DNA of 36,969 nucleotides from NCBI GenBank assembly GCA_003671255.1, contig QWPF01000014.1, positions 1 to 36,969 on the forward strand, read 5' to 3'. This stretch comes from Planctomycetota bacterium (GTDB taxonomy: Bacteria; Planctomycetota; Planctomycetia; Gemmatales; Gemmataceae). The position numbers were made by a program, and so were the translations under genes. Below, piece after piece: positions 5,036-30,963 of this stretch (its first letter is position 1; every line of letters starts with the position of its first letter). The notes beneath the pieces were generated by a model. That model searched no databases. It was not told the origin of the DNA and saw only the letters and a program-made list of their open reading frames with translations.

Positions 5036-5056
5036 AGCAAATACCTGATTAAAGAT

Positions 5057-6091: not shown

Positions 6092-6133
6092 TGAACTCTC
6101 CCTTTATATTCAGACAGTTATTCGCAATTAAAA

Positions 6134-6673: not shown

Positions 6674-6743
6674 GGGTACTTCTTTTCCTTTTTACATTTC
6701 ATTCAAATATTAATGCAACAAACACATTCTTTAGAGAAAGAAC

Positions 6744-8975: not shown

Positions 8976-8983
8976 ATCAGTTA

Positions 8984-13351: not shown

Positions 13352-14545
13352 TTAATCTGCCAGAAAGAACAGGCATTCGCACCAGTTGATTTTTGATCCT
13401 AAAGATGCCTCGATAACCAAGGATAACTCCTTAGTGCCTGCTAAGGGCAAATTCAAGCTACCAAGGCCATCTTTCCAAGTACGACCAACCCAACTTGCAA
13501 TTACTTTACCGTCAGCCAAAATCTTGATATCGGCCCTGCCCTGCCTGCCCTCCACATCATCAAAACCAAAAAAGCCACACAACTTTTGATACTTCCCATC
13601 CAGAGGGAAAGTGATTGATGTACTTCCCATGGTTGAAAAGCCATTAGTATAAGAGGAACCAGAAATCAAAAAGTCAGAATTCTTGGTGGCTTTAACAGTT
13701 TTCGCTTCCATCGGAGTTTCAAAAAACGGTACTTGTCTCAGTTTAATGTTCTTAAGTTCTTGAATTCTAACAACACTTTTGCCCAAAATTACTGCGTGCT
13801 GAATTTTGGAAAGGGGAATGCGAACCTTCACGCCCTGCATCGTTTTACCTTCAAGAATTCCCATCGAAAGATTGAATTCCGCAAGCGTTATCCTTGTACC
13901 AGAATCCAAAACCAAACTCATCACTTCAATCGTTTGCTCTTTTTTAGAATTGTCATCCGAACTTAAACCAACCAAGGAGATAGAATCCGTTTTGTATTCG
14001 GGTTTGCTGGTTCCCGTATCAAGCACAACAGTTTTTGCACCAAAACTTTCAAGCACCCCTTCCACACGCTCTGCATTATTCAAAACAACGAAATCTTTGG
14101 CCCGAATTTCACCAAGTATTTTGTTGCGGTAGGAAACAGGGTCAAGAATACCCAGAGGATTTTTCAACCATATCATCTTGGTATCCAAAAGCGGAACTAG
14201 AGTTTTGCTCCCAGAAACAAAATCCAAACTTTCAACCTCAAAGCTATCATCCTTCATCAACAAATTTTCAAACTTAATGCAATCATCATTCAAAAGCCAT
14301 AAGGTGCGGGCCAGGGGCAATTTTGGAATTACAGAATTTTTCCGGGCAATATAAACAGGATTGGCAAGCGTAAAACTTTTCCCTTCTGCAGATTGCATTT
14401 CCAAACTATTGGTTGCAGGCATTCGCTGAATGCTGCCCTCTTTGATCGTTCCAACTCTATCACGAACAATAAATAATGGCTCTTGAGCACTTGCAAAAGT
14501 CGCCCAACAAGAAAAAAACAATGCTGTCTGAAGGAGTAATTTCAT
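13352..14545 (-). CDS. secreted NPCBM/NEW2-type carbohydrate-binding domain protein
   Basis: The protein has 397 residues. A signal peptide (about 1-20, ending SAQ) is followed by a beta-rich N-terminal and middle region. The C-terminal part of about 140 residues fits the NPCBM module. Typical signs are the SGSSYTNGFSTMGSTSITFPL segment (read in two parts), CGFFGFDD, DIKILADGKVIASW and the final ASLGSKINWCECLFF. NPCBM modules are thought to bind glycans and are abundant in planctomycete exported proteins. The start overlaps the stop of the alpha-toroid gene by four bases (ATGA), so the two are translationally coupled. This is the last gene of the eight-gene operon. It probably acts outside the cytoplasmic membrane. 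Confidence 0.75.
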   Translation of the reverse strand: MKLLLQTALFFSCWATFASAQEPLFIVRDRVGTIKEGSIQRMPATNSLEMQSAEGKSFTLANPVYIARKNSVIPKLPLARTLWLLNDDCIKFENLLMKDDSFEVESLDFVSGSKTLVPLLDTKMIWLKNPLGILDPVSYRNKILGEIRAKDFVVLNNAERVEGVLESFGAKTVVLDTGTSKPEYKTDSISLVGLSSDDNSKKEQTIEVMSLVLDSGTRITLAEFNLSMGILEGKTMQGVKVRIPLSKIQHAVILGKSVVRIQELKNIKLRQVPFFETPMEAKTVKATKNSDFLISGSSYTNGFSTMGSTSITFPLDGKYQKLCGFFGFDDVEGRQGRADIKILADGKVIASWVGRTWKDGLGSLNLPLAGTKELSLVIEASLGSKINWCECLFFLAD

Positions 14546-15654
14546 TTTTGAAAAATAGGAAGATAATTGTTGGGTGTCTCAAGAACCAAGCAAGCCATTG
14601 CGGTTGCGTAATGACCACACACCTGATCAAACCAGGAACCATCGGGCCGCTGCCTAGAGATTAATTCATCGCGAATATAGGGAAACCAATCAGCCCAATA
14701 CTTACCACCTGCGGTATACATCGCCTGAACAGCATAATAATGGCCGTAAAAATAATGCATTTCCGTGCGTTGAAGATTAAGCCCCTGAGGTTTGGATTGA
14801 ACTAAAAACTGCAACCCAGCTTCGATCTCTGGCCCATCGTAAATACCCGCACTATATAAAGCGACAACCCCCGCAGCAGTGCGTGCAAATCCCATCTGCC
14901 CACCACCACCCGATTGTGCCATGTATCTAAACCAACCTTCGCGTTTATCTTGGCAGCGTTTCACATATTCAACACAGCGATCCACACGGGATTTAGGAAC
15001 AAGAATGCCTGAATTTCGCGCAGACCTTAAAGCCATGATTTGACAAATTGTCACGCTGATATCCGCATCCTTGGGCACGGGGTTATAACGCCATCCACCT
15101 TCCTGAGTCTGGCTATCCAAGATGCATTTAATAGCCCGTTCAAGGGCATCATGGGTTTGGGTTCTAAGTTCCTTATCAGGGATCATGCCATGAACTTCAG
15201 CAAGAAACAAAGTGGCAAAACCATGTCCATACATAGGGCCGTGCGGGGAAGACTTAGGGTTATGAAAAAAGCCCGGGTATCCCCCCTCTTTATTTTCCTG
15301 AGTAAGAATATATTTCAGGGCATCGGTAACTATTTTCCCGAACCTACCTCGCTGGGGCTGGCTTCCACCCGCCATGAATGCCAGTGCAGCTAGGCTGGTG
15401 ATTGCAACATTTCCGGTGTATGCGCCCGTGCCAAACGAACCATCGGGCCTTCTCCGGGTGGCAAGAAATTCGAGTCCTTTTTCGACGGCTTTATCCAACT
15501 GGGGAGTCATCATGCCCTTGGCCTGAGAACCATCAGGCAGATTAGGGCCCTTCTTTGTTGTTGGCTCTTGAAGTGCAATAGATGAAATTGGCATGGTTAA
15601 TAAACCAAGCCCTGTAAGCAAACATTCTCTGCGCTGGATAAATAGTGGCGTCAT
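14542..15654 (-). CDS. Tat-exported prenyltransferase/squalene-oxidase repeat (alpha-toroid) protein
   Basis: The protein has 370 residues. The N terminus IQRRECLLTGLGLL looks like a twin-arginine signal (R8, R9). The rest consists of alpha-alpha repeats with the QW-like signatures RRRPDGSFGTGAYTGNVA, QENKEGGYPGFF, QTQEGGWRYNPVPKDADIS and SRQRPDGSWFDQ, typical of the prenyltransferase/squalene-cyclase toroid. The catalytic DxDD of squalene-hopene cyclase is not present; DADIS is the nearest match. Its exported location also argues against a cyclase acting on membrane squalene, so binding or a structural role is more likely. It overlaps the neighbours on both sides by four bases, which ties it closely to the MoxR-type operon. 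Confidence 0.8.
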   Translation of the reverse strand: MTPLFIQRRECLLTGLGLLTMPISSIALQEPTTKKGPNLPDGSQAKGMMTPQLDKAVEKGLEFLATRRRPDGSFGTGAYTGNVAITSLAALAFMAGGSQPQRGRFGKIVTDALKYILTQENKEGGYPGFFHNPKSSPHGPMYGHGFATLFLAEVHGMIPDKELRTQTHDALERAIKCILDSQTQEGGWRYNPVPKDADISVTICQIMALRSARNSGILVPKSRVDRCVEYVKRCQDKREGWFRYMAQSGGGGQMGFARTAAGVVALYSAGIYDGPEIEAGLQFLVQSKPQGLNLQRTEMHYFYGHYYAVQAMYTAGGKYWADWFPYIRDELISRQRPDGSWFDQVCGHYATAMACLVLETPNNYLPIFQK

Positions 15655-16616
15655 TTTTTTCTGGCACCTTTTTCAGCAACTTTAGCATAATACTTTCGAA
15701 TCATTTCATCATAACGATCCATAAATTGGTTGGGTACACCATAAGCATTAAGCTCTGCCCGCAAAGTTTCAGGCAAATGCCCCCAAGCCTCTTTAAAAAC
15801 ATCTGCAGCAGGATTCAACTTATCTTTGGATGGATCGCTCTTGCCCCCATTCCCAGACTTCGAATCTTGGTCACCGCCTTTGCCCTGATTCGCAACCTCT
15901 GATTTTTCAGATGACCCTTTGTCACCTTTACCCTGCATATTTTTAGGCTGCCCTTTCCCTGCATCGGGTTTTCCATCGGGATCAGCTTTGCCTGTGCCCC
16001 CCTGCTTTTGCTGTTTCCCTGAATCTGCACCTTGCTGATCTTGCTTGGGGCCGCCCTGCTTCTGTTTATCCTGCCCTTTTTCAGAATCTTTGGAATTAGC
16101 ATCTTGGTTATCGGGGGATCCTTTTGATTGTTTATCCGAGCTTTCACTTTTCGATGAGGATTTAGATTGCGACTGCTGAGACTCTTTTTGGTTGTTTTGA
16201 TTTTTCTTAAGCAGTTTGTCGATATCTTCGAGAATATCGCGCTGCTTTTGCAGAGTAGTTTCCCCTAACTCAAGGTTTCCTAATCTGTCGTCAACATCTT
16301 TGAGGTTTTTCCCGATTCGTCCAAAAATCTCTTCCTCTTCAAGATTATCCTTGGGTAGATCGATGTCTTTTTCAGGGCGCAAACCCTTCTCTTTTTTCTT
16401 CTCTGGGTTAATCTCGGGTTTGTTTTTATCACTTGGAACAATCGCAGAATCTTTCGGTTTATCCTGAGGAACATCTGGCGTGGCTTTTTTCTTTTTCAAC
16501 TTTACAGGAGCTTCATCACCTGATTTATCCTGAGCAGGGACAGCCTCTTTCTCTTGTGCAATCATTGCCCCGGAAAGAAGTAAAAGTGAGAACAGCATGA
16601 TAATCCTGATACTCAT
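15651..16616 (-). CDS. secreted low-complexity protein with conserved-looking C-terminal motif
   Basis: The protein has 321 residues. A signal peptide (about 1-20, ending MIAQ) is followed by a lysine/proline-rich stretch. A short helical part (IFGRIGKNLKDVDDRLG and QKQRDILEDIDKLLKK) comes next, then about 130 residues of almost pure Q/K/S/G/D/N. The C-terminal 48 residues, with WGHLPETLRAELNAYG and QFMDRYDEMIRKYY, are ordered and look conserved. The likely plan is a helical domain and a C-terminal peptide tethered by a flexible hydrophilic linker. No enzyme motif is seen. It overlaps the genes before and after it by four bases each. The linker resembles the tail of the left-edge gene in composition. 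Confidence 0.75.
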   Translation of the reverse strand: MSIRIIMLFSLLLLSGAMIAQEKEAVPAQDKSGDEAPVKLKKKKATPDVPQDKPKDSAIVPSDKNKPEINPEKKKEKGLRPEKDIDLPKDNLEEEEIFGRIGKNLKDVDDRLGNLELGETTLQKQRDILEDIDKLLKKNQNNQKESQQSQSKSSSKSESSDKQSKGSPDNQDANSKDSEKGQDKQKQGGPKQDQQGADSGKQQKQGGTGKADPDGKPDAGKGQPKNMQGKGDKGSSEKSEVANQGKGGDQDSKSGNGGKSDPSKDKLNPAADVFKEAWGHLPETLRAELNAYGVPNQFMDRYDEMIRKYYAKVAEKGARKK

Positions 16617-19600
16617 TGTAAAACTCCCTGCGGTGCATTTCGTTGATTGAACTCGAGCAGAATTTCCAATAGTTCGCCAATTTCCCGCTGATCTTTTTGA
16701 AGCTGAAGCATCTCACGCCTCGCATCTTCAGGCATCTTTTTGGAATCAGGGAACTTGGTTGAAAGCTGTTCGGTTCGGTCATACAAATCCGCTTGTAGAT
16801 TACGCAATAATTTAAGTTGAGCTATCGAAGGGGGCTTGCGATCTTGCGCACCACCACCTGATTGATTTTGCTTCGCTTCATCAGGCTTTTTCTCTTGCTT
16901 TTCTTCTGGTTCGTTCTCTTTTCCTGCAGAGGCGAGCTGGGAAATTTCTTCCTTGAGTGCATTTTGAAACTGACCCAATCGTTTCAAAGCCTCTTTTTGC
17001 GCAGGCACCACTTTTTCTGACATAGCCGGGCCTTTGGTCTGGGTGCGAGGGTTTCGTTCCGCCAACTTGGCAGCATCGCGCATCGATCTGCCTGCCATAC
17101 CAATCGTTTTCATAAACACAGGCAAGCCATCAAGATCGCGGGAAGCGACGAGTTCGGTTTCTTCAGCAAGGCCGTTTTGGGATCGTGAAAACCCGGTAAG
17201 AGAAAGGATCTGAGCCCGTGTCCAAGCGCCTTTTTCATTCAGCAAAAGATCAAATCTGTCGGATTCTTTTAGCAAAGATTCCTGCCTATCAGAGAGCAGT
17301 TTTAAGCTTTCAGCAATTTTTTCTAAGCGCTCTCTCTGCAAATTTTCTTCGGTTTCTTTTACCAACTGCTGCACATCCTGAATCTCTCTTTGTAACTTTT
17401 CTTCTGCTTTATCAAGAGAATTGGGTTTAGGATTACCATCAGGTTCCTGAGGTGGATTTTGAACTGCCCGCCTTAACTCTTTCGCAGAGTCTTCGAGGTT
17501 ACCACCTTCGTTTTCGTTCTTTAGCCTGCTCAGAGTTTTAGCCATCTCCTCCATCTTTGAAGCTAATTTCTCCATCTCTGCATTGTTTTTTGCGAGAGAA
17601 TCTTTTTTTTGCTCATCATTCTTGATCTTTTGTGCTTCATCGCGTTTTTTACGAAGAGTTTGCATTTCCTGTTTCATTTCTTCGAGTTGCTTTTGAACCT
17701 CACGCAATTTCTTCGCAAGCTTTTGATTCATCTCGCGCGGATTTTCTTCAAGCTTATTTAATATCTCCTGCACCCCTTCCGCAGCTTTTGCCTGCGACTT
17801 TGATGCTTCCATCAAACGGTTAGATTCAATCTCTTCCTTTGCAGAACGAAGATTGTTTTTCAAATCCTTAACATCAGGGGAATCCAATGCTTCCTTGATA
17901 TTTTTAGTTGCAGATTCGTCTTGACGCTTGTTCTCCTGCATCGACTTATTCATTTTATCAAGCAAATTTTGAGCTTTTTGCGCCACCTTGTTTTGCTGCA
18001 AAGAAAGATTCTCGATCTTTTCCTTTTGCATCGGAGTAAGTTCGTCGGCTTTCTTGCCCGATGCGGAAGGATCTTGCTTTTGCGTATCCTCCACTTTTCG
18101 TTTCATCTCCTCCAATTCGAGAAGAGTTTCCCGTGCATCAGCACGCATCTCGGTCAACCCGGCCCAAGGTTCAAGATTTTTAAGTAATCCCTCCAACTTT
18201 TTCTCAACCTCTTGCTGCTTCTTAAGCGACTTCTCAAGTGCAGCGGCCACCTTTTCTTTATCCAAACCTTTTCCAGCATCTGCGGATTCCAACCGTTTGG
18301 ATGCCTCCGATAATTGCACTTCCACCTGTGCCAAATCCCCCTCTTCGATTTTTTTGATTTCTTTCGCCAACTCATTGAGACGGTTTAACGAAGCAGAGGC
18401 TTTTAACTTGTTAGCTTCCGCAAGCTTTTTGATTTTCTCAAGATCGCCTAGAATCCCCGCTTCTTTTTCGCCAAGTCTTTCGCTTACATTTTTTTGCCCC
18501 TGCTCTGCAGATTGAACAGCTTCCATTGCCTTCTGAATGTCCTCTTCCTTGGCTTTGATTTCATTCAAGGCAAAGTTGGTATCCTTGGTCGCCTTGCGCT
18601 GGATATCCCTCACTTTCAACAACTCCTGCCTGGCTTTCTCCTGGGCTTTCTCAAGCAACAATTCAATCCCATTTCGATCGACAATTTGAATTTCCAACCA
18701 ATCAGAACCACCTTTGGGTTTCAAAGGCAAAACATCGTCATGATCATTGGCTACGAAACGGAGGGAGAATCGATCCCCAGCCTTGAAAGAAGAACCATCC
18801 GAATTTTTCCAATCCTTCAACCGGACTAGGTGATCGAGTCCTAGACTATTTACAGGCTTATTCCGGGCCCCGTTCTTATCTAAAAAAGGCTGGCTCCAAA
18901 AATTCGAACTTGAAGCCTTAACACTATTTTGGGCCCCTTTAAATTCCAACCCCACTGTATTTAATCCGTAAAGAGCATCGTCTGCGGATACTTTAAGCAG
19001 CAATTCAGCTTCAGGAAACAACTGTAAAAAACCACTGTTCACAAGTGAAGAATCCATTTTCACCAGGGGAGAAGGATCCGTACGAACCTGCAAATCAAAA
19101 CTCCTGATCGCATATAAATCACTTTCATCCTCGATTACAACCGAATAAATTCCCGAAGCAATTGGAGCAAACGAAATTTCAAACCCGGTATTCAACCTAT
19201 CTAATGGAATTGCAGTTTCTGAAACAACAGTTTTGGCAGTTGATAACAAAACCAAAGCTGCCCAATGCTCGCCTGCAGAAAATAAGGAACCGACTATCCC
19301 GGGCAGTACATCTTTGTTCTCGGGTTGGAATTCGAGACGGGCGGATTTCAACGCCCGATCTGACAACCCTTTAAAAAACAAATTACTTCCAAGGGGTACA
19401 TCCAATTGCAAAGTACCTGGAGAAACATTTAAAGGCGAAGGCAATCCCGTATAAAAGGGCGGCAGGCAAGTTACCGTGGGCGAGGGATTTCCATTGATGT
19501 CCAAGAATACAGGGGGAGCCAACACCGTTATTTGATAAAGATCAGAAGAAGCATCGCCTGCAAAAATTTGCACTGAAAAATCACGACCTATTGCAGAGAC

Positions 19601-20401
19601 ATCTACTCTCCCGGTTAATTCCGAAACATTTTCCTCGTTGGTCTGGATATCTGCAATTAATTTTGAATGCAAGGCACCATCACAATGAAGCAGAACCGTT
19701 GCTTGCTGGGGGATTTTACCCTTGATCCTTGCAGCTATACGAAGAGTTTCATTTTTCCCAACTTTAGGTTTTGGGGCAACCATTTCAATTTGAGTGAGTG
19801 TAGGCCATGCTATGTTTTCATAAGGAAAGATCACCCGAGCCAATGCCACACCAGAAAAAGGCATGTAACCCAGAAAAACCAATAACATCGTAAGTGAAAA
19901 TATTCCTGATAGAAGAAAACTTAAACCCACAAAACGAACATGAACCTTGAAAAAAACATCCGCAATCATCACTTTGTCGAAAGCATCTGTAATCGCCTTT
20001 ACCACCAATTCTGCTGAGGCCCCTTGGATGGATTGATTCTTTTCTAGAAAATGAATAGCACTAGCGAGGGAATCTTTTAAGCGCGGATCAATACCCTCCA
20101 TTTGCAAAGCCAACTGAGTTGCAGTCAGCGAACAGCGGTTGATGGGTTTAAAGAAAACCATAAATGCAAAAGTGGAAAGTGCAAGCCATGAAATCAAACA
20201 GAAGGCACGCAACCAAGATTCCATATGTAGTTGGTATTCCAGAAGAACAATCCCTGTTAAAACGAATCCAGAGATTAGGGACCAGAGAAAGACCGCCCGA
20301 AAAAATCCATAGACTTTGTTTTGCAACAAGATGGAAGACATCAGGCGTTGCAAGCGCTCTGCATCGGGGGAAGCTTCGATTTCTTTGGTAAGTAAAGTCA
20401 T
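16613..20401 (-). CDS. DUF4175-like membrane protein with very long coiled coil
   Basis: The protein has 1262 residues. Membrane segments lie at about 31-55, 65-84 and 155-178. A large beta-rich region follows with YTGLP at 317-321 and a later Ig-like region (DDALYGLNTVGLEF). From about 570 to 1060 the chain is a highly charged heptad-rich coiled coil with blocks such as QLEEMKQEMQTLRKKRDE, and the C terminus has further helices and a Q-rich linker. The layout fits the DUF4175 group often coded beside MoxR/BatA operons. It probably reaches far into the periplasm. It is a paralogue of the left-edge gene. It is 33 bases downstream of the double BatA/VWA gene and overlaps the next gene by four bases. 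The start has AAAAGGA about eleven bases upstream. Confidence 0.82.
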   Translation of the reverse strand: MTLLTKEIEASPDAERLQRLMSSILLQNKVYGFFRAVFLWSLISGFVLTGIVLLEYQLHMESWLRAFCLISWLALSTFAFMVFFKPINRCSLTATQLALQMEGIDPRLKDSLASAIHFLEKNQSIQGASAELVVKAITDAFDKVMIADVFFKVHVRFVGLSFLLSGIFSLTMLLVFLGYMPFSGVALARVIFPYENIAWPTLTQIEMVAPKPKVGKNETLRIAARIKGKIPQQATVLLHCDGALHSKLIADIQTNEENVSELTGRVDVSAIGRDFSVQIFAGDASSDLYQITVLAPPVFLDINGNPSPTVTCLPPFYTGLPSPLNVSPGTLQLDVPLGSNLFFKGLSDRALKSARLEFQPENKDVLPGIVGSLFSAGEHWAALVLLSTAKTVVSETAIPLDRLNTGFEISFAPIASGIYSVVIEDESDLYAIRSFDLQVRTDPSPLVKMDSSLVNSGFLQLFPEAELLLKVSADDALYGLNTVGLEFKGAQNSVKASSSNFWSQPFLDKNGARNKPVNSLGLDHLVRLKDWKNSDGSSFKAGDRFSLRFVANDHDDVLPLKPKGGSDWLEIQIVDRNGIELLLEKAQEKARQELLKVRDIQRKATKDTNFALNEIKAKEEDIQKAMEAVQSAEQGQKNVSERLGEKEAGILGDLEKIKKLAEANKLKASASLNRLNELAKEIKKIEEGDLAQVEVQLSEASKRLESADAGKGLDKEKVAAALEKSLKKQQEVEKKLEGLLKNLEPWAGLTEMRADARETLLELEEMKRKVEDTQKQDPSASGKKADELTPMQKEKIENLSLQQNKVAQKAQNLLDKMNKSMQENKRQDESATKNIKEALDSPDVKDLKNNLRSAKEEIESNRLMEASKSQAKAAEGVQEILNKLEENPREMNQKLAKKLREVQKQLEEMKQEMQTLRKKRDEAQKIKNDEQKKDSLAKNNAEMEKLASKMEEMAKTLSRLKNENEGGNLEDSAKELRRAVQNPPQEPDGNPKPNSLDKAEEKLQREIQDVQQLVKETEENLQRERLEKIAESLKLLSDRQESLLKESDRFDLLLNEKGAWTRAQILSLTGFSRSQNGLAEETELVASRDLDGLPVFMKTIGMAGRSMRDAAKLAERNPRTQTKGPAMSEKVVPAQKEALKRLGQFQNALKEEISQLASAGKENEPEEKQEKKPDEAKQNQSGGGAQDRKPPSIAQLKLLRNLQADLYDRTEQLSTKFPDSKKMPEDARREMLQLQKDQREIGELLEILLEFNQRNAPQGVLQ

Positions 20402-20434: not shown

Positions 20435-23400
20435 CTATAACAGTTGCAAGCGCTTTCCCAAAAACCAATTCAAGGTTAGGAGTAATAAAACGAGGATAAA
20501 AACAAGGGGATGGTTCCATAAATCCCAGGGAGGCGAAGGGGAACCCGACGAAATTTGAAACCCTCGAGGAAGGTCGGAAGGCACTGATGCAGCCTTATCG
20601 GGAAAATAGAATTTCCCCTTCGAGGTGAGGGCAAACTTCGTTAAATCATTTTGCGCCATCGTCAGTTTTTCCATTTCACCCGGTGGAGGTAGAACGCTGC
20701 ACTCAACAAAGGGTGGAGCATCCTGCTTAAGGGGTTGCAACACCTGGAAAAGATATTTTCCATCGCGGGCATTATCTATGACGGCTTCAAAAGCACCCCT
20801 ACTGCCCGCAACTTTGGCAAGTTCAAGCGTGACTATTTCCTTCCCTTTGCCATCTTGAATATTTTTTCTTTCCATGGAAACCCTAACCGAGGAATTAACC
20901 TCCGCACCTGAAGCATCCAGAGGAAGCCTCACGAGTACACGGATGGAATCACCACGCCTATAGTTCCCCGTTTTATCGAGTTTAAGTGACATCTTCGAGA
21001 CAGAATTCCGGGAAAGGAAACGCAAAGTCTGAAGCCAGAAATAATTGTAATAGGCCTGATCTTCACGATATGCCCAACGCCATGATTCATCAAAAGCAAA
21101 AAACAAAACCCTGCCCGCACCATAGTATTGTAACACCATAAGTGGCACATTTTTGCCTGCCAACCCAAGGCCTCCCCCCTCTGTACTGGCAAGAACTTCT
21201 GCACCTTTTTTGGGCACCACACCTGCAAAACACCAATACATCTCCTTCATGCGATTCCAAAGAGTACTGTTTTCTTTATCTTCTGAGTGAAATCTAAAAA
21301 TAGGATGAGTGGTTGCAGAGGCAGCAGGAACCAAATGGTAACCTTGGTTGATACCTTCGGGCGATTCAATCAAAGGATTGGTATTAATTTCGACAGGTAA
21401 TAAATCGCGCAGAGAAGCAGCGTACTCTTGAGGGAAGAACCGCTGCCCCGCAAGAAAGAGCACGCCTCCACCTTTTTCGCGTGCAAAGTCGTTAAGATCA
21501 GAAAGGAATCGTTTGAATTTTGCAGCTTCCCGGGATTTCGGATCAACATCTCCAAAAATCACCACATCGTACAAAAACAACTCCCCTCGAGTGGGAAGGT
21601 CTGCAATCGCAGTGCGATCCTGTGAAGGGAAATCTGGGTCTGCTTCCAATAAAAGCACATTCAACGAAAAAAGTTTTCTCCCACCCGGAACTTCTGCCTG
21701 CCTCTCGAGAAGTGTTTTTAAGTACTGATATTCGTATCGCCTGCAGCCCTCGACAAAGAGAATTTTGACCGTGCTAGCCTGCTGAACAAGCACATTTTTT
21801 TCAATACGATTATTTGCAGTCTGCGACTCTTCCTTCTGCAAGGGGATCTCAATTTCATAAAGTTTCAGCCCTTCGGTTTTTGGTTTGTCAACCAGCCTTA
21901 TCACCGAAGGCGCCCCTGATTCATCAAGTGTAACTTCTTGGCGGTCAATAATATCGGGCTTCCCTTTTTCCTTAAGAAGCACTTGGGTGCGAAAGTTTTT
22001 ATAGCCTGCGGAAGAAACCCTTACATCCAAAACTACCCGGTCTCCGAATGCAATTTCATCAGGCCCTTGAACATCCAACACTGCAAGATCTTTGGGTTCC
22101 ATTTCCTCGCCCAATCCTACAACGAAAAAAGGAACCGAACTCTGAACCGCAAACTTTGTTACTTTCGATAATTCTTCGCCATCAGTGACAACTCCATCAG
22201 AAAAGAGAACCACACCTGCAAGAGGGGTGCCCCGGAAATCATTAAGCACCTGCCTGCAGGCATTGCCTATTTTGCTGCTATCATGGGAAGCATCAGGCTT
22301 GAGGGCACGGATTAAATTAAGGGCATCAGGGATTTCTTCAAGCTTGGAGATAAGAGCGATTTTTTCTGCCCGGGCAGAAAGGTGATACAGATGAATGCGG
22401 AACTTTCTTTCAAGAATATTGGCAAGAAACCCGCCTTGGTTTTCGGTAAGAATGGCTCGGGCAATTCCAATCCGGGTAACTTGATGACTGGACGCATCAG
22501 CAATTTTACGCAAAAACATTTCACGCGCCTCGTCTTGGTATTTATCTGCAACCGACATGCTTTGAGAATCGTCTATCAAAATCGCAATGTCGGGCCAGGT
22601 AAACCTTTCAAACCCCAAGCCAATCTGAGGCATCAGTATCCATAAAAGCATCCACCAAAAACCCAACCTCAAGCCCGTTAGAGTGATCGCACCCAACGCA
22701 CTACGATTGAATATCAACCTTACAAAAGCCATTCCTGTGCAAAAAGCCAGAACCCCAAAAAGCGATAACCTGACCGTTTTTGTGTTGATCACAGGAGAGA
22801 ATTCATTTTGAGTTATCAATCTGGTTTGCAATGTTTCCCCTTCTCCAACTTCAATTCGACCACGCATTGCCTCAAAATTTTCAACTACACTTGCAGGAAG
22901 AAACGAAAGCGCATTTACACTTGAATATGTGCCCAAAATACCCACCACACAAAATACAACAGGAATTAAAACGAGCCAACCCAACCCCATGACCAACCAT
23001 GGTTTTTTAGTGCTTGGCGTAAGCGACCTGCCCAGCCCCATCAACCAAGAAACCAAAAATTCCCCTATCGAAAAGATGAGGAACAATAGAAGAAATACCC
23101 CCGCAATTTTCTCTCTCAACATCCCTTTGTCTTCATTTTCAGAAGCAGTAGCAGAGTTATTTTCACTGGTGAAGTCTAAGGCATCCTTAACGAGCGAAAA
23201 ATTCGCCTCCGGATAGAACACATTGATCTCCTCCAGCGAAGTACGGGTAAGATCTGATTCCGATCCTGATTCCCCCATCGGGCTTAACATTGGATTTACA
23301 GCAAAACCATTGCTGGCCTGTGTCGAAAGATACCTTGCAAAATAAAACCCTGACTTGGAAGTATTGTTATAGTTCATCCTCGTAAATTCCTGATCCTGAA

Positions 23401-25405
23401 TCAAAGGCAATGTTTCAGAAGCACCATCAGGGAGCGAGATTTTAAATTCGCCTGATTGCTGCGTAGGAAAATCTTCAATCGCTGTTCCACAAAGTTGCGA
23501 CTGCTCTTTTAATTTCCCCGCACAACTTGCCAACATCAACTCTTGGATAAAAGGCAGATAACTAGGGTACGCAGGCCAGTTGTTCCATTCGGTGTTGGCA
23601 CTGCTACAGGCAAGGTAGACCCAACCCTTGGATCGTGAATCTGTAGCCTTGGAATTCTTTTGCAAAGAAGCAATGGGAGGTTGCCAACCCAACAATGCAG
23701 GAACAGTCAACGAGGTGTTTTTAGTTTCATCAACAACCCCGCCCGGAATAACACTTTTGAAATTCGCAAGATTTCTAACCAAAGATTTGGAGAGTGGTTC
23801 GGTTTGAAAAACAGTGGTGAATCGTGGGCCAAGCAACGATTGCTTATCTTCTGCGGTACGAAATGCGCTAAGAGGTGGCACTTGAAAAGCAGAGGAATCC
23901 GCTTGGAATTGAAAGAGTGAACCCTGAAGCGCAGACAGTGGCTTGATCAATTTCGCAGGTAAAAGCCCCTTACCTTCCTGATAAAGATTATCGTTGTAAG
24001 AAGCTGGTTCAGCCTGCTCACCCAACCAGAAAACCGCACCGCCACCTTTACGCACATACTCCGCAACTGTTTTCGCTTCTGCTGCACGCCATCGGGCGAT
24101 ATCACAAAAGAAAACAGAATCATAATTGGTCAGCCCGCGATTTAATTCATCCGCCAATCTTGGTTCATCAATCGATCGTGCCTTAAACTTCAAAGGGATG
24201 GAATCAACCCCATCGTTATCAAGTGCGATCTGCAAAAACCCAGTCGACCTTTCCAGCTCACGCGCAGAATACCTCCCATTCACCAACAAGATATTAAGCT
24301 CCTTGCTGACTCGAACGATCACCCTGCAGGAGTCATCAACTGCAAGATTATCCTGATCCAACTGCATTTGAACTGCGTAATCGCCCGGCTCTTTAAACTT
24401 GTATTTGAGTAACACTGTAGCCTGCGAGGAAGTCTGCATATCGACCGATTCCTCGAGCACTTGTGCAAGTGCGACGGAATCTGCACCTTGGGCGATTTTA
24501 CCTGCGAGCAATCGCACCTTCACCCTTGTTTGTGGCTTATCTCCAAAAGCTTGAAGCTTTGCAATAAATCTGGTTTCGGCACTAACCCCCGCGATTTGCC
24601 CATCGATTTCAAGATTCGTAATTGCAAGGTTGGCGGGTATTTCGGCACCTACATCAACAACACCAAGGGCGGCTTTGGTTCGAATTTTAGTAAACAAGGC
24701 GTTGGCAGGGCCTGCACCATTACCAAGCCAGGAACTCTTTTGAAGATCAGAAACGAAAAGAACTTTGCGCTCTTTAAACCGAGCAGGTGATCTCTGCAAA
24801 ATGGCATCAACCAAAGCAAGCGTCCCGGGAAGATCCGCGCAACCATGCGTAGCGCCCATAGCGGATATTTCTTCCCGCACCTTATCGAAATCTTCAGCAG
24901 CCTCGTTGATAATTATCCTCGGAGGGTATGCCATTTGCACCAAACTGATGGCATCACCCGGGTTGCAAGCTTGAACAAAGCGATCCGCATTTTGCCTAGC
25001 TTTTTCGAAGGCAGACTTACCCTCTTTTTGCGCCAGCATGCTAAGAGAAGCATCAAGAACAAGGATGGTGTGAGTCCGGGAGACGCCAGCAATTCGTTGC
25101 CCGCGCATCTCGGGGAATAACTTACGCCAATAGGGTTCCGCCCAAGGCATTGCAGCAGCACAAGCGGAAGCCAGCAAGAAAACCATCAAGCAACGCAGGG
25201 CGAGCAGCAACCATTGTTCGATGCGCCAGCGTTTCTCTTGAACTTTTTTAGCTTCTAACAGAAAACGAATGGTGGGCAGGTCGACAATCTGCCTGCGAAA
25301 CCTGCGCAAGAGATGTATGACCACGGGAATTGCAACAGCACCCGAAGCCGCAAGAAGCGCAGCAAAAGGTGTTTCAAACAGAAATGCGAACACCGGAAAA
25401 ATCAA
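20435..25405 (-). CDS. double BatA/VWA/GATase-like membrane protein (apparent fusion)
   Basis: The protein has 1656 residues from a TTG that overlaps the DUF58 stop (TTGA); GTG at 25393 is an alternative. The first half has a BatA-type N terminus (AIPVVIHLLRR, membrane segments at about 13-32 and 64-86), a VWA domain with MIDAS DASLS at 118-122, then a GATase1-like part (KGGGAVFWLG, 453-462). Membrane segments follow at about 765-790 and 803-828. The second half repeats the plan: membrane segments at about 880-898 and 907-928, MIDAS DDSQS at 945-949 with FSDGVVTDG, NILLV/KILFV-type strands, KGGGVLFLAG at 1311-1320, and a C-terminal membrane helix. In related operons these are normally two separate proteins. 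It is probably the membrane VWA partner of the MoxR ATPase. A single unbroken frame covers both halves. Confidence 0.85.
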   Translation of the reverse strand: MIFPVFAFLFETPFAALLAASGAVAIPVVIHLLRRFRRQIVDLPTIRFLLEAKKVQEKRWRIEQWLLLALRCLMVFLLASACAAAMPWAEPYWRKLFPEMRGQRIAGVSRTHTILVLDASLSMLAQKEGKSAFEKARQNADRFVQACNPGDAISLVQMAYPPRIIINEAAEDFDKVREEISAMGATHGCADLPGTLALVDAILQRSPARFKERKVLFVSDLQKSSWLGNGAGPANALFTKIRTKAALGVVDVGAEIPANLAITNLEIDGQIAGVSAETRFIAKLQAFGDKPQTRVKVRLLAGKIAQGADSVALAQVLEESVDMQTSSQATVLLKYKFKEPGDYAVQMQLDQDNLAVDDSCRVIVRVSKELNILLVNGRYSARELERSTGFLQIALDNDGVDSIPLKFKARSIDEPRLADELNRGLTNYDSVFFCDIARWRAAEAKTVAEYVRKGGGAVFWLGEQAEPASYNDNLYQEGKGLLPAKLIKPLSALQGSLFQFQADSSAFQVPPLSAFRTAEDKQSLLGPRFTTVFQTEPLSKSLVRNLANFKSVIPGGVVDETKNTSLTVPALLGWQPPIASLQKNSKATDSRSKGWVYLACSSANTEWNNWPAYPSYLPFIQELMLASCAGKLKEQSQLCGTAIEDFPTQQSGEFKISLPDGASETLPLIQDQEFTRMNYNNTSKSGFYFARYLSTQASNGFAVNPMLSPMGESGSESDLTRTSLEEINVFYPEANFSLVKDALDFTSENNSATASENEDKGMLREKIAGVFLLLFLIFSIGEFLVSWLMGLGRSLTPSTKKPWLVMGLGWLVLIPVVFCVVGILGTYSSVNALSFLPASVVENFEAMRGRIEVGEGETLQTRLITQNEFSPVINTKTVRLSLFGVLAFCTGMAFVRLIFNRSALGAITLTGLRLGFWWMLLWILMPQIGLGFERFTWPDIAILIDDSQSMSVADKYQDEAREMFLRKIADASSHQVTRIGIARAILTENQGGFLANILERKFRIHLYHLSARAEKIALISKLEEIPDALNLIRALKPDASHDSSKIGNACRQVLNDFRGTPLAGVVLFSDGVVTDGEELSKVTKFAVQSSVPFFVVGLGEEMEPKDLAVLDVQGPDEIAFGDRVVLDVRVSSAGYKNFRTQVLLKEKGKPDIIDRQEVTLDESGAPSVIRLVDKPKTEGLKLYEIEIPLQKEESQTANNRIEKNVLVQQASTVKILFVEGCRRYEYQYLKTLLERQAEVPGGRKLFSLNVLLLEADPDFPSQDRTAIADLPTRGELFLYDVVIFGDVDPKSREAAKFKRFLSDLNDFAREKGGGVLFLAGQRFFPQEYAASLRDLLPVEINTNPLIESPEGINQGYHLVPAASATTHPIFRFHSEDKENSTLWNRMKEMYWCFAGVVPKKGAEVLASTEGGGLGLAGKNVPLMVLQYYGAGRVLFFAFDESWRWAYREDQAYYNYFWLQTLRFLSRNSVSKMSLKLDKTGNYRRGDSIRVLVRLPLDASGAEVNSSVRVSMERKNIQDGKGKEIVTLELAKVAGSRGAFEAVIDNARDGKYLFQVLQPLKQDAPPFVECSVLPPPGEMEKLTMAQNDLTKFALTSKGKFYFPDKAASVPSDLPRGFQISSGSPSPPWDLWNHPLVFILVLLLLTLNWFLGKRLQLL

Positions 25406-26346
25406 GTAAGTGGCCCCCGCATCTCTTTTCTTATCCGCGACTTTCTACCCCGTAAATATTCCGACAATACTTCGCCAAGTACTTCGTCCGTCCTTAGCAA
25501 AACATAATCACTATCCAGCTTTCTCAACTCTTCACGCAGGCTTGTGCGCCACCGATCAAGATTTTCAAGATAGCTTTGCCTTAGAGAAACCGGGTCTGCA
25601 TCGAGTTGCGGTTCGCCCTCCAAACCTCGAAACAAAGTAGGATCTTGAAAAGGAAAATCCATCTCCTGAGGATCCATTACATGAAAAGCAATGACTTCAT
25701 GGCCAAGATGATTCAGGTGCTTGATGCCCTCCATCAGAGAATCCATATCGTCAAGAAAATCACTGAAGATAAATACAACGCCCTTACGGGTCATTCTCTC
25801 ACAAACTTCATGAAGCAATGGTGAGAGGCAGGTTTTCCCGGTGGTGGGGCCCAACGAAAGTATTTCGAATATCGCCTCCAATTGCGATACCCTTCCCGAG
25901 GGTGATAATCTGTTTAACACCTTATCGTTAAAAGTATAAAGGCCGATGGCATCTCCATCGTGCTGCAAAAGATATGCAAGAACGCTTGAAGCAATGGCAG
26001 CATGATCAAATTTAGAGCGGAGGCCAGACTTTGTTTTCTGCCAAGGAACAGAACCAAAAGCCATTGATTCACTGCAATCCACCAGTATAGAGCATGCAAG
26101 ATTTGTTTCTTGTTCGTATTGTTTGAGGTAGAGTTTTTCGGTTCTGGCAAGAACTTTCCAATCAAGCCTGCGAAGATCATCGCCTGCTGAATATTCGCGA
26201 TGTTCTGCGAACTCAACCGAGAAGCCCCGCATTGGGCTACGATGTTTGCCCGAGATAATACCTTGAACAATGGTTCTGGCTTCGAACTCGATAAGCCGTA
26301 GCCTGGCCAATACATCAGCATCAAGATATTTCCGTTTATTACCCAA
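25402..26346 (-). CDS. DUF58/VWA-like protein, MoxR partner
   Basis: The protein has 314 residues. The DUF58 signature is nearly complete: HRSPMRGFSVEFAEHREY, GDDLRRLDWKVLART and LYLKQYEQE. A MIDAS-like DCSES (90-94) follows inside a VWA-like fold, with FIFSDFLDD further on. The start is TTG at 26346. It is supported by GGGAG six bases upstream and because the next in-frame ATG falls inside the conserved signature. DUF58 proteins go with MoxR ATPases and BatA-type proteins in chaperone-like modules acting on secreted or membrane proteins. It lies 15 bases after moxR and overlaps the next gene by four bases. Confidence 0.9.
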   Translation of the reverse strand: MGNKRKYLDADVLARLRLIEFEARTIVQGIISGKHRSPMRGFSVEFAEHREYSAGDDLRRLDWKVLARTEKLYLKQYEQETNLACSILVDCSESMAFGSVPWQKTKSGLRSKFDHAAIASSVLAYLLQHDGDAIGLYTFNDKVLNRLSPSGRVSQLEAIFEILSLGPTTGKTCLSPLLHEVCERMTRKGVVFIFSDFLDDMDSLMEGIKHLNHLGHEVIAFHVMDPQEMDFPFQDPTLFRGLEGEPQLDADPVSLRQSYLENLDRWRTSLREELRKLDSDYVLLRTDEVLGEVLSEYLRGRKSRIRKEMRGPLT

Positions 26347-26361
26347 GCCTAACTCCCGAGA

Positions 26362-27423
26362 TTAGATTTCCGCAAACGGTATGGAGTCGATCAGTTTCTG
26401 AACAATTTTATCAGCGGTCATGCCATCAGATTCTGCATGATAGTTGGTAATGATCCTGTGCCTGAGAATGGGCATTGCAACTGCTTTGATATCTTCACGG
26501 GAGACAAAAAAGCGACCAGCAAGCGCAGCCCGTGCCTTCCCAGCCATCACCATGGCTTGCCCAGCTCTGGGCCCCGCACCCCAAGAAATGTATTTCCGCA
26601 CAAAATCTGGAACAGCGGCAGAAGATTCTTTATCACGATCCGGGCGGCTCTTACGCACAATATCCATCGCATATTTGACAACATGGGGCGAAGCGGGGAT
26701 TTTGCAAACAAGTTCTTGCATCCCCAAAATCTCAGCTTCACCAAGTACACGCTGAACGAGATGAGTATGCCCTGAAGTTGTGCGCGAAATAATCTCAAGC
26801 TCTTCGGCTTCCGATGGATAGCCCACCAAAATCATGAACATGAAACGATCCAACTGCGCTTCAGGTAGTGGATAAGTACCCTCTTGTTCAATAGGGTTTT
26901 GAGTTGCGAGCACAAAAAACGGTTTGGGTAATACATGCCGTTGACCACCCACCGTAACTTGAAGCTCTTGCATTGCTTCGAGGAGTGCAGATTGGGTTTT
27001 AGGCGGAGTCCGGTTGATTTCATCCGCAAGGACAAGGTTGGCGAAAACAGGGCCGTTGATAAAGCGGAAGACCCGCTCTCCCGAGGTTTTATTTTCTTGA
27101 AGGATTTCAGTTCCAGTAATATCGGAGGGCATTAAATCCGGAGTGAATTGAATTCGATTAGAAATAAGGCCAAGGCTGGAAGCCAAAGTTTTGACAATCA
27201 GGGTTTTCGCCAACCCCGGCACACCCACCAAAAGGCAGTGGCCCCGAGCAAAAAGGGCCAGCATCAATTGCTCAACAACCTCCGAACTTCCAACAATAAC
27301 TTTGGAAATTTCTTCCCGGATTTTAGCACCAGCCTGCTGGATCTTCTTAATGCCTTCAATGTCGCCTGCTTTTTCCTGTTCATTCTCAAACAGCACTTCG
27401 ATCATGTTTTGTTCATCGGGCAC
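26362..27423 (-). CDS. MoxR-family AAA+ ATPase
   Basis: About 353 residues. Walker A is GVPGLAKT, Walker B is LVLADEINR, sensor 1 is LATQNP and the arginine-rich GTYPLPEAQLDRF region follows. All are typical of MoxR proteins, including the A-K in place of G-K in Walker A. I prefer the GTG at 27423: AAAGG (27434-27438) lies ten bases before it, but only one base before the in-frame TTG at 27432. ATG at 27405 is a third option. MoxR ATPases use ATP to remodel or activate partner proteins that carry VWA domains, as encoded by the next two genes. The spacing is 15 bases to DUF58 and 15-24 bases to the PQQ gene upstream. Confidence 0.92.
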   Translation of the reverse strand: MPDEQNMIEVLFENEQEKAGDIEGIKKIQQAGAKIREEISKVIVGSSEVVEQLMLALFARGHCLLVGVPGLAKTLIVKTLASSLGLISNRIQFTPDLMPSDITGTEILQENKTSGERVFRFINGPVFANLVLADEINRTPPKTQSALLEAMQELQVTVGGQRHVLPKPFFVLATQNPIEQEGTYPLPEAQLDRFMFMILVGYPSEAEELEIISRTTSGHTHLVQRVLGEAEILGMQELVCKIPASPHVVKYAMDIVRKSRPDRDKESSAAVPDFVRKYISWGAGPRAGQAMVMAGKARAALAGRFFVSREDIKAVAMPILRHRIITNYHAESDGMTADKIVQKLIDSIPFAEI

Positions 27424-27447
27424 AGCAACCAAACCTTTCTTTTAAAT

Positions 27448-30400
27448 TCAAGGAACTAGAGAATAAACCTCGGAAGCCAACCCCACCAGTATCTCATTTT
27501 TATCAAGCAAAAACTTAGGAGGATGAACAGCCTGCGAATCATTACCAAAAGAAACTTCAGGAAAAAGATGGAACTCCTTCCCAACTTTTAAATCCCACTT
27601 CGCTCCGCCGGGATAGGTTTCCAAAAAGATCTTCTTTTGCAATGCCCCATTCAAAATAACCAAAGGCATGCCCTGCCCCTTGGGGTAAATAAAATCTGAA
27701 TTCCTAGTCAAAACCCAGGAACCAAGCTTCAAGGTGATTTTAGTGCATGCGGGAGGCTTTACCCAAACAAGAATCTTCTCACCATGAAAACTCATACACC
27801 AATCATATAGCAAAAAGGCGGGGGATAATTCAAAATATTTGGTTTCTTGCTGGGTACTCAAACTCCACGATTTAAAATGATTACCTGCAAATCCGTAAAG
27901 GTTATCACCCAAAAGGCGCCATGAATCAAGGTTGAGATTTTTCTCAAATATCAAAAGTGGCTTGCTCCAAATATGACTTCCTTTAATCAGATCGATGAGA
28001 AACAAAAAGGTTGCAGCATTCCCTTCAACACCAACGATGGCTTGATTGTTAAAGGCAAAAATCGTCCCTGGTTTGCCCGTTTTAAGTGACGCAGGAAGCA
28101 ATGCGATTTTCATGACACATTGAAAGCCCTGCGGTTCCATTAGGCAAAGCTTTCCATCTGAGTTGAGCCCAAGAATTTTATCCCCAACAGTTACCATGGT
28201 TTCCCAAGGCGCGTTATTCAATCTGGGCACGCCTCTAGGTTGCGAAATTCCCACCCCCAAATACCAGTAATTATTTTTACTATCCGGAATGATGCAGGCA
28301 TTCTGATCAATCGAAATCATTTTCTGCAAGAGAAGATGATGGTCAGAAAAATCGCTTTCAAAGATGGGAAAATGCGATTCGAAAAGAACCCGCCCGTCTT
28401 TGAAATCAAGACAATAAATTTTCCAAGAGCCATCGTGACAAAAGATTCTGTCGCCTAAAAGTACAAACTCGAAGGGGTTCTTGCTCTTATTAATTGGTGC
28501 AAAACACCATAGCTCCACACCCTTTTCCAAATCGAATGCCACAACTGATTTATCAAAACCAAGCAACAAAGTATCGCCCATCGTTTTCATCCAAGAACAA
28601 ATAGCCCCTAGTTTCGATTCCCAAAGTAAAGTTCCATCTGAATTGCGAACAACCTTGAATGCGTGAGAATAAGCAATTGCAGTCAAATTCGAGGTTTTGG
28701 CAACTTGTAATGAACCTTGATCAAAAAACTTCCCCGATCCAGCTTGCCTTACCACCCACTTGATATCACCACTTTTCGAAGATTCTTTTTCGCTATTATT
28801 ATTAGAATTGTTTGCTTTGTTTTGCTCAGCCCTCTTCACTTGGGAACCCAGGGGAAACACCTCATCGTGTATTTTGGGTTTTTCTTTGGTGGTTCCCTGA
28901 TATATGCGGATCGCACTGCGATCGACACTCAATAAAAGATCATCAAAGAGAAAAAGATTTCCCGGTTGCAACCGATGAAATAACGAAAGATCTGCAGCGG
29001 GCAAACCCGTTTTCATATCAACAACAAAAACGCCTTTGACCGTGGGCCAGATGTAATTATTCCCTAGTACGAATCCTCTCCCCGCAGAAGGCAGGGAACT
29101 CCCATCCGACGGAATGCTCCACCCTTGTTGATCCAAACCATTGGTTGCATTTAATCCCCTCAACCCATTTTCTGTCCCTAATAGCAAAACCCCATCTTTG
29201 ACCGCAATCAATTGATTTACATTTTCAACATCACGAGACCAAATAAGACCGCCGCTTGCACTATCCAATGCCTGAACCACTCTGCTTCTTGAATTTAAAT
29301 GATAAACAATAGCTTCATGAAAAATAGCCCTTAGCGGTGTTGGATTTTTTATGCTGCGTGTATTTTCATTGGGTGTAACCAGCCTTAACCAAGCCGCCTT
29401 ACCAGTCTTCTGATCCACCGCAGTAACTGCTCCGCCTCTGCTGGTTGCAATTACAAGGTTACCTGCAAGTGTCAAAAACGACTGCCTACTTTCATCCACA
29501 TTACCCCCAATTACTTCACCCGCCACCTCACAAGACCAAAGCAAATCTGGCGCACCTGCATTAAGATTGTAACAAAGAACTTTAGGTGCCTCCCTGCCAT
29601 TAACCTTTTGACCCACAAGAACAAAAACCCTTCCATCATGAACCAACGGATCACTTTCAAATCTATTGCTATCCCCGGAAGGAAGCTTAACTTCCCAAAG
29701 CAGGCGGGGCCCATCCAGATTTACTTCCAAGCAAGCAAGAAAACTTTCGCAATCTAAATCCCCCATTGGCACATTGGCAAAAAGCCCATTCTTGTTTTTA
29801 ACTGGCTTATCGAGTGTTACCAACACTTTGTTAGGTGGACAAAAAGTAAGAGCCATGCTTCTTCCCAAGCTTGATTGCTTGTTAAAATTATCTTTTGGAA
29901 GCATCTCTTTAGGGTCGTATAAGATATTTTTGGCACCAGAAACCACATTAAAAGATAGCAACCTCGAGCCATCTTGAAATAAAATGTGCGAACCAATCCG
30001 CAAAGGATGTGAAGGTAGATCAGCAGATTTTTGTGGAGACAAAAGGTTTTTTGCAGAAACAGCATCTGGCTCATCATTATCTATCGTTGCAATCGAGGTT
30101 TTCCAAACGGGTGGGTTGGCGCACCAGTTTCCCAGTTGGTGCACGGTTGGCCCCTGCGCAATGATTGGGTTTCGCTCCTTGTTTATGGCGTATGAATTCC
30201 AGTCGGTGCTGCTCAATCGAAATGATTTGGATTGTGAAAGCTCTTGAAGGGTTTTAACTAGGTTGCCTTTTTTTGATGCTATGGTTCCCTCCTCTTTGGG
30301 GAAGTCCGATGCAAATTGCTCCAATCGTTCCTTTGCAATTTTACCAAAGCCATCCCTTACTAAAGAACTCGCAACCAACCGGGCCCGAAGCAAGGGAAGC

Positions 30401-30963
30401 TGCTCAAAAAAAAGGGGCGTATCCAGATTCGATTTTTGCTGCGCTTCCAAATAAAGTGCTATAGGCAAATTCCACCAGTACTCCGCTTCTTCAATCTTGG
30501 ATTGTTCAAAAGCCCTATCACCCAGAAGCATGCATGCATCTAACCCGCTCTTACAAAAAACTCCATTACGAACAATTTCATAAAGCCCATTCGAATCTTT
30601 TTGCGTTTTGGCAACATCGAACTGCTTTTTAACATAAGCCTCCTGCTTTTTATATTCTTGCGAGTTCTTATCACTTCCCAAGAGGAACACTTGACAAAGC
30701 CATGATGCCCTTGTTGGATGATTTTTGCTATTTATCACCATCACATCAGGATTTGTTTCAATAATTTTAAAAAGGTTTTCCTGAGAAACTTTCCCGTCTT
30801 TTCCTAATAAGGTGCTTGCCAATTGATTTATTTTTGAAGTTAGCTCTTTATCTGACTGAATCGATTGCTGGGCAAAAAGGAAACAATCGAACAGTCCTAG
30901 ACTTAGGATTATTAGAACCCGGGCTGCAATACCTAGGCTTTTTAGCATTAATTTGGACCCCAT
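27448..30963 (-). CDS. exported PQQ-like beta-propeller protein with helical N-terminal region
   Basis: The protein has 1171 residues. A signal sequence or anchor (about 8-31) is followed by a helical, possibly TPR-like region to about residue 240. Beta-propeller repeats then cover most of the chain. PQQ-type blades are plain in AVTAVDQKTGKAAWLRL (about residue 508), VQALDSASGGLIWSRD (about 561), VVAFDLEKGVELWCF (about 804) and IYCLDFKDGRVLFES (about 850). No catalytic quinoprotein residues can be assigned, so a binding or scaffold role like that of BamB is more likely than dehydrogenase activity. It is the first gene of the eight-gene operon, and its own 320-base upstream region is divergent from the cytochrome operon. 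ATG at 30948, preceded by GGGG, is an alternative start. Confidence 0.82.
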   Translation of the reverse strand: MGSKLMLKSLGIAARVLIILSLGLFDCFLFAQQSIQSDKELTSKINQLASTLLGKDGKVSQENLFKIIETNPDVMVINSKNHPTRASWLCQVFLLGSDKNSQEYKKQEAYVKKQFDVAKTQKDSNGLYEIVRNGVFCKSGLDACMLLGDRAFEQSKIEEAEYWWNLPIALYLEAQQKSNLDTPLFFEQLPLLRARLVASSLVRDGFGKIAKERLEQFASDFPKEEGTIASKKGNLVKTLQELSQSKSFRLSSTDWNSYAINKERNPIIAQGPTVHQLGNWCANPPVWKTSIATIDNDEPDAVSAKNLLSPQKSADLPSHPLRIGSHILFQDGSRLLSFNVVSGAKNILYDPKEMLPKDNFNKQSSLGRSMALTFCPPNKVLVTLDKPVKNKNGLFANVPMGDLDCESFLACLEVNLDGPRLLWEVKLPSGDSNRFESDPLVHDGRVFVLVGQKVNGREAPKVLCYNLNAGAPDLLWSCEVAGEVIGGNVDESRQSFLTLAGNLVIATSRGGAVTAVDQKTGKAAWLRLVTPNENTRSIKNPTPLRAIFHEAIVYHLNSRSRVVQALDSASGGLIWSRDVENVNQLIAVKDGVLLLGTENGLRGLNATNGLDQQGWSIPSDGSSLPSAGRGFVLGNNYIWPTVKGVFVVDMKTGLPAADLSLFHRLQPGNLFLFDDLLLSVDRSAIRIYQGTTKEKPKIHDEVFPLGSQVKRAEQNKANNSNNNSEKESSKSGDIKWVVRQAGSGKFFDQGSLQVAKTSNLTAIAYSHAFKVVRNSDGTLLWESKLGAICSWMKTMGDTLLLGFDKSVVAFDLEKGVELWCFAPINKSKNPFEFVLLGDRIFCHDGSWKIYCLDFKDGRVLFESHFPIFESDFSDHHLLLQKMISIDQNACIIPDSKNNYWYLGVGISQPRGVPRLNNAPWETMVTVGDKILGLNSDGKLCLMEPQGFQCVMKIALLPASLKTGKPGTIFAFNNQAIVGVEGNAATFLFLIDLIKGSHIWSKPLLIFEKNLNLDSWRLLGDNLYGFAGNHFKSWSLSTQQETKYFELSPAFLLYDWCMSFHGEKILVWVKPPACTKITLKLGSWVLTRNSDFIYPKGQGMPLVILNGALQKKIFLETYPGGAKWDLKVGKEFHLFPEVSFGNDSQAVHPPKFLLDKNEILVGLASEVYSLVP

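Follow-up and report, generated by a model that had tools for sequence, protein, structure and literature searches.

BatA and BatB are short proteins with a single VWA domain; they lack a GATase-like domain and are not fused. Those of the aerotolerance operon of Bacteroides and Leptospira (PMC3557215) resemble the protein described here in combining a double transmembrane (TM) anchor with a VWA domain and in having MoxR and DUF58 neighbours. The same domain order is displayed by a planctomycete pair of a BatA-domain and a VWA-domain protein, encoded on pPL62-3 of Planctomyces sp. SH-PL62 (WP_068423035.1 and WP_068423038.1) with DUF58 upstream. This pair differs, however, in being encoded by two genes, with three helices each and no linking helix.

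The genes RL3499–RL3502 of Rhizobium leguminosarum presumably encode a MoxR ATPase, a DUF58 protein, and two large membrane proteins. They are presented in the title of Vanderlinde et al. (2011; cited in PMC5118466 and PMC4255674) as a broadly conserved operon involved in cell shape and envelope integrity, and RL3501 is listed with a growth defect and described as a conserved hypothetical membrane protein. This operon is taken as the closest functional lead for our protein, to which it is likened by description; it differs in belonging to the Alphaproteobacteria and in consisting of separate genes. MoxR AAA+ ATPases are described as working with VWA partners, namely NorQ with NorD and RavA with ViaA (PMC9976466, PMC3893208). 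In these cases, the partner is a single soluble VWA protein and not a membrane double chain. Two homologous membrane units in one chain are also found in DUF606 and small multidrug resistance transporters, where, in contrast to the parallel arrangement with an odd helix number and an added helix predicted here, the halves of the fusions are antiparallel; for symmetric units in parallel orientation, single-chain evolution is considered to require an even number of spans (PMC3962082). Neither a description of such a fusion for Gemmata, MoxR, or VWA, nor an experiment on any of these proteins, was found in the open-access literature.

The window, i.e. the whole analysed stretch of 36,969 nucleotides from a member of the Gemmataceae, contains an open reading frame of 1656 codons at positions 20435..25405. 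The frame runs without interruption on the minus strand, as seen from the list of open reading frames and the translation, while the plus strand across the same positions is full of stops. The gene starts with TTG, which overlaps the stop of the DUF58 gene by a few bases, and belongs to a series on the minus strand that reads, in order, PQQ-like protein, MoxR, DUF58, fused chain, and coiled-coil gene:

27448..30963, minus strand: PQQ-like beta-propeller protein, conserved upstream neighbour (PF13360, E 1e-19)
26362..27432, minus strand: MoxR AAA+ ATPase, also a neighbour in relatives (PF07726, E 1e-62)
25402..26346, minus strand: DUF58 protein overlapping the start of the fused gene, also a neighbour in relatives (PF01882, E 4.5e-42)
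20435..25405, minus strand: fused BatA/VWA/GATase-like chain of 1656 aa with seven predicted TM helices (open reading frame and translation; full-length counterparts in 59 genomes of the order)
16613..20401, minus strand: protein of 1262 aa with an N-terminal membrane part and a long Lys/Glu/Gln-rich region, conserved downstream neighbour

Both the MoxR ATPase and the DUF58 protein are devoid of membrane helices. The 1262-aa protein was not assigned to any family in a Pfam search; its Lys/Glu/Gln-rich region probably forms a coiled coil, and its homologue comes after the second gene in most loci of the relatives. Further along the minus strand, downstream of this gene, overlapping genes at 13352-16616 encode a 321-aa protein without a Pfam match, a toroid protein resembling squalene-hopene cyclases, and a protein with an NPCBM domain. 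A gene of the latter type also stands after the split pair in plasmid pPL62-3. A membrane-organising group near the MoxR series, FloA flotillin and two NfeD-type proteins, is encoded at 4442-10672 (minus strand).

The fused chain consists of two homologous halves, each of which follows the layout TM-TM-VWA-beta-GATase-like-TM. The features of both halves and of the region between them are as follows:

23021..25405, minus strand: N half, residues 1-795 (BatA-type TM pair, VWA, beta, GATase-like, TM3); the Ncore profile matches complete separate first genes in other families, which end here
25157..25372, minus strand: BatA N-terminal double-TM domain, residues 12-83 (TM1 12-34, TM2 62-88; PF07584, E 5e-11; TIGR02226, E 1e-14)
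24746..25069, minus strand: VWA 1, residues 113-220, with a complete DxSxS MIDAS at 118-122 (PF13519, E 1.4e-15)
23456..24295, minus strand: GATase-like domain 1, residues ~371-650, KGGG at 453 (hhalign to GATase-like domain 2, 96.6%, E 5e-10)
23051..23113, minus strand: TM3, residues 765-785, end of the N half (hydropathy peak 2.57; homologous to the last helix of the separate first gene)
22889..23020, minus strand: junction insert, residues 796-839, a positively charged linker, TM4, and 16 residues, without counterpart in split genes
22937..22993, minus strand: TM4, residues 805-823, additional helix between the halves (hydropathy peak 2.58; in all 64 distinct fused genes)
20438..22888, minus strand: C half, residues 840-1656 (TM5, TM6, VWA 2, beta, GATase-like 2, TM7); the Ccore profile matches complete separate second genes
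22082..22591, minus strand: VWA 2, residues 939-1108, MIDAS DDSQS at 945 (PF00092, E 4e-9)
21014..21787, minus strand: GATase-like domain 2, residues ~1207-1464, KGGG at 1311 (weak Pfam ThuA/DUF7408/GATase1_like matches; profile match to 2gk3 and 3soz (STM1381), E 3e-6)

An earlier note, made from the sequence by a model, had read the region as two BatA/VWA/GATase-like proteins in one chain of 1656 residues, each half framed by membrane helices. Pfam and hhalign agree with this reading of the intact frame, which lies on the minus strand, and hydropathy placed two TM segments before and one after the soluble part of each half. The motifs occur in the order given there and within one residue of the positions given: DASLS at 118, DDSQS at 945, and KGGG at 453 and 1311 (454 and 1312 in the note).

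The N-terminal domain scored 43.3 bits against PF07584 (cut-off 25.9) and 54.4 against TIGR02226 (cut-off 23.05), and the MoxR and DUF58 genes that adjoin the fused gene provide the gene context of BatA. Each half combines a VWA profile match with a DxSxS MIDAS, and the Pfam matches of the BatA domain (12-83) and both VWA domains (113-220 and 939-1108) all exceed the cut-offs. The residues D118, S120, S122, and D220 of VWA 1, as well as D945, S947, S949, and D1070 of VWA 2, are invariant in 15 fused chains. AlphaFold2 models of the two halves, built from an alignment of six close relatives, reached a mean pLDDT of only 42 and 35; therefore, no contact between the halves can be shown. The VWA 1 part alone was usable and resembles the BatB structure 3ibs (rmsd 2.8 A over 145 columns).

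GATase-like domain 1 had no Pfam match of its own. For domain 2, the GATase-like/ThuA/DUF7408 matches at residues 1279-1464 stayed below the Pfam cut-offs (18.6 vs 27 bits and 21.3 vs 33.4 for the GATase1-like (PF07090)/ThuA superfamily); the domain resembles this superfamily only by fold, via 2gk3 and 3soz. The G-x-C-x-G elbow with the nucleophilic cysteine of class I glutamine amidotransferases is absent at the strands following KGGG (FWLGEQ and FLAGQR), so that both GATase-like domains probably have a binding or structural role.

Comparison of residues 1-795 with residues 840-1656 by hhalign, using profiles built from 15 fused relatives, aligned 641 columns with a probability of 99.1% (E 6e-19), as opposed to 2.8% in a control with one alignment reversed. 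The repetition is therefore not due to chance, and the N and C halves are ancient duplicates with one plan.

The boundary between the halves was located by comparison with families other than that of the window, in which the two proteins are encoded separately. There, the first gene extends 2-16 residues beyond TM3, up to the counterpart of residue ~795, and its end, AWxFG, corresponds to SWLMG at 786-790 of the fused chain. The start of the separate second gene, LGIEPVAAGEDTQW, corresponds to NFEAMRGRIEVGEGETLQT from residue ~842, so that homology to the second gene begins near residue 840 and not 800. On this N side, the junction that had been placed at residues 790-805 is confirmed, since the homologues outside the family are divided near residue 795, as predicted; it is, however, not a point. 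The view of the join as a simple boundary between a gene end and a gene start has to be abandoned, since an insert of about 45 residues (796-839) with an additional membrane helix lies between the two proteins and simple read-through would not account for it.

Between the halves, each fused chain carries a positively charged linker and a hydrophobic segment, followed in most of them by a TGDFLGFLP-like motif. With a fixed hydropathy threshold, the TM4 segment was detected in all 64 distinct fused genes. The full four-helix pattern was found in 62 of them; in the other two, another helix is sub-threshold. Exactly two helices precede the MIDAS in 40 of the 43 distinct split second genes, the three exceptions being due to a signal-like segment at the N-terminus in one case, a hydrophobic strand in another, and a helix below the threshold in the third. 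By hydropathy, the fused chain thus comprises 3+1+3 helices. Within the genus, a third-position bias and dN/dS values of ~0.1-0.2 extend through residues 786-840; therefore, the junction is translated and under purifying selection.

The distribution of charges points to a membrane topology in which the soluble domains of both halves would lie outside the cytoplasm, the first protein ending inside and the second beginning outside, according to the positive-inside rule. Lys and Arg versus acidic residues amount, per 100 residues, to 28 vs 6 in the TM1-TM2 loop, 13 vs 4 in the TM3-TM4 linker, 10 vs 12.5 after TM4, and 27 vs 8 in the TM5-TM6 loop. As to net charge, split first genes have +2.1 behind TM3, while the TM3-TM4 linker has +2.2 and the stretch after TM4 -1.1; split second genes have -1.6 ahead of their first helix, and the loop that follows has +2.1 to +2.7. 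Counting against this topology, 22% of the TM3-TM4 linkers are without a net positive charge. At the start of some split second genes lies a segment resembling a signal peptide (MSARVTATSLLASLAAAAAAPLASAQE in locus L096, for instance), as expected if the N-terminus is outside. With three helices per half, direct fusion would therefore flip the second half, and TM4 would restore the parallel orientation. Hydropathy and charge agree with the same orientation of both halves, as in a parallel dimer, the structural models of which are of low confidence.

The full-length, stop-free chain was present in 59 of 102 genomes of the order, including several complete genomes, and all 59 belong to the family of the window. 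In some of the remaining members of the family, the chain is truncated by contig ends; two have one TAG and two are frame-changed at the junction. The TAG codons, both away from the junction, interrupt otherwise intact fused genes at residue ~387 (locus L004 of G001) and in GATase-like domain 2 (L051 of G032), and represent either draft-genome errors or decay. Close relatives have neither a stop nor a frameshift at the junction. One of the frame changes is an extra base in a CCCC run within TM4 (G367, loci L102/L150) and the other a deletion that removes TM4 (G399, L103/L143). We considered these two as true fissions, but neither provides a clean start for the second gene, and error or decay is more likely. 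It is suggestive that G399, one draft genome and the sole member with the second half out of frame by more than one base, has lost TM4 too.

Outside the family, each of the pairs inspected, from loci of six other families of the class and further loci of the phylum sample (294 genomes, with the junction inspected for part of the matches), consists of two genes; in two of the three f4 loci and one other, the stretch holds the second gene alone. Homologues thus occur as single chains within the family but as two genes beyond it, and not, as the earlier note had allowed, as single chains throughout. Many outside matches lie in long open frames (~1500-1940), which could have indicated independent fusions elsewhere in the phylum, but the junctions fetched all contain stops. 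The two genes commonly lie side by side, at several outside loci in a shared frame with a stop between them. In the complete genome G050, by contrast, the partners are 1.5 Mb apart (L151, L039), the first behind MoxR and DUF58 at 0.355 Mb and the second at 1.91 Mb, ahead of the coiled-coil gene; therefore, they need not be co-transcribed.

When a tree was built from the second half, the fused genes grouped in a single clade (support 100) nested among split orthologues from the same class, with the family's paralogous copies in a different clade. All inspected paralogues of the window's family are split. One of them, in the window's own genome (L046; G000 C90:22000-34000), is a second MoxR-DUF58-BatA-VWA series, in which the membrane genes are separate but in one frame, with a single TAA between. 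Apparent split orthologues within the family (G007, G020, G027, and G391) and in G037 of the sister family were grouped with the paralogues. The fusion is ancestral to the whole family, has a single origin, and is not peculiar to the genome of the window.

We consider it highly probable that the gene arose by an ancestral fusion, since conserved, of two neighbouring homologous subunits that have three helices each and are associated with MoxR and DUF58, and that TM4 keeps the halves parallel in a covalent 1:1 heterodimer worked from the cytoplasm. The window does come from a 3.2-Mb draft genome of 191 contigs, and the frame changes of G367 and G399 demonstrate that errors occur at the junction; nevertheless, an assembly or sequencing error that removed a stop or shifted the frame is hardly credible, being refuted by the identical uninterrupted frame in 59 genomes, several of them complete, and by purifying selection across the junction. 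It is very improbable that the long single chain is ancestral and was split in other lineages. The unrooted tree alone cannot give the direction of change, and the frequent adjacency of the two genes, in several loci with a shared frame and a stop between, would fit a split. Yet split genes flank the fused clade on both sides, occur in the paralogues and throughout the phylum sample, and include the orthologues of the same class within which the fused clade is nested; an ancestral single chain would require many separate losses of TM4 at the same boundaries.

Alternatively, one chain might be translated and then cut at TM4, acting as an internal signal peptide, to yield two ordinary subunits. 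TM4 has the length of a signal-peptide core and is followed in this genus by VNA or ANA, which would suit signal peptidase I, and a signal-peptide-like segment starts some split second genes at the same place. We regard such cleavage as improbable, since the motif is not conserved: within 16 residues after TM4, a strict A-x-A occurs in 11 and [AV]-x-A in 16 of the 64 fused chains, and the conserved feature at this place, TGDFLGFLP, is unlike a cleavage site. Neutral drift, with a lost stop, a tolerated hydrophobic read-through, and an unchanged function, carries more weight but is still unlikely. The split partners serve all other families, so that fusion is not required for the role of the system; on the other hand, TM4 and the conserved motif after it have been kept in all fused genes across ~30 genera, with only two disruptions seen, each in a single genome.

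In the preferred reading, a conserved fusion with TM4 as the connecting helix, each half would be inserted N-terminus out and C-terminus in, leaving the VWA and GATase-like parts outside the cytoplasm. With an odd number of helices, the first protein would terminate on one side of the membrane and the second begin on the other; a new helix, TM4, would therefore have been added at the fusion, leading the chain out again and keeping both halves parallel. The product would be a parallel heterodimer, with a 1:1 ratio fixed by the covalent chain. The short positively charged loops would serve the MoxR ATPase and DUF58 as points of action on the cytoplasmic side, and the outside arms would bind a partner via the MIDAS sites. 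The neighbouring genes and the known MoxR/VWA pairs suggest that the halves may act together in a MoxR complex on the cell envelope. The chances are about even that the family offers a natural case in which two odd-helix subunits were joined in parallel by an invented linking helix into a covalent double-VWA receptor, with both MIDAS sites acting jointly under one MoxR motor.

Merging membrane proteins with an odd number of helices without inverting one of them is a textbook problem. The family of the window represents a dated case, with split outgroups, one fusion event, and one added helix kept in some 30 genera. It would have solved an odd-helix parallel fusion, which lies outside the even-number requirement (PMC3962082). 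This MoxR system is widespread, but few studies have dealt with it. Its two BatA/VWA proteins are homologues of ancient origin; they can bear being linked covalently at a ratio of 1:1, and one family has retained this link. That the separate proteins of the split systems form a heterodimer is therefore a testable prediction.
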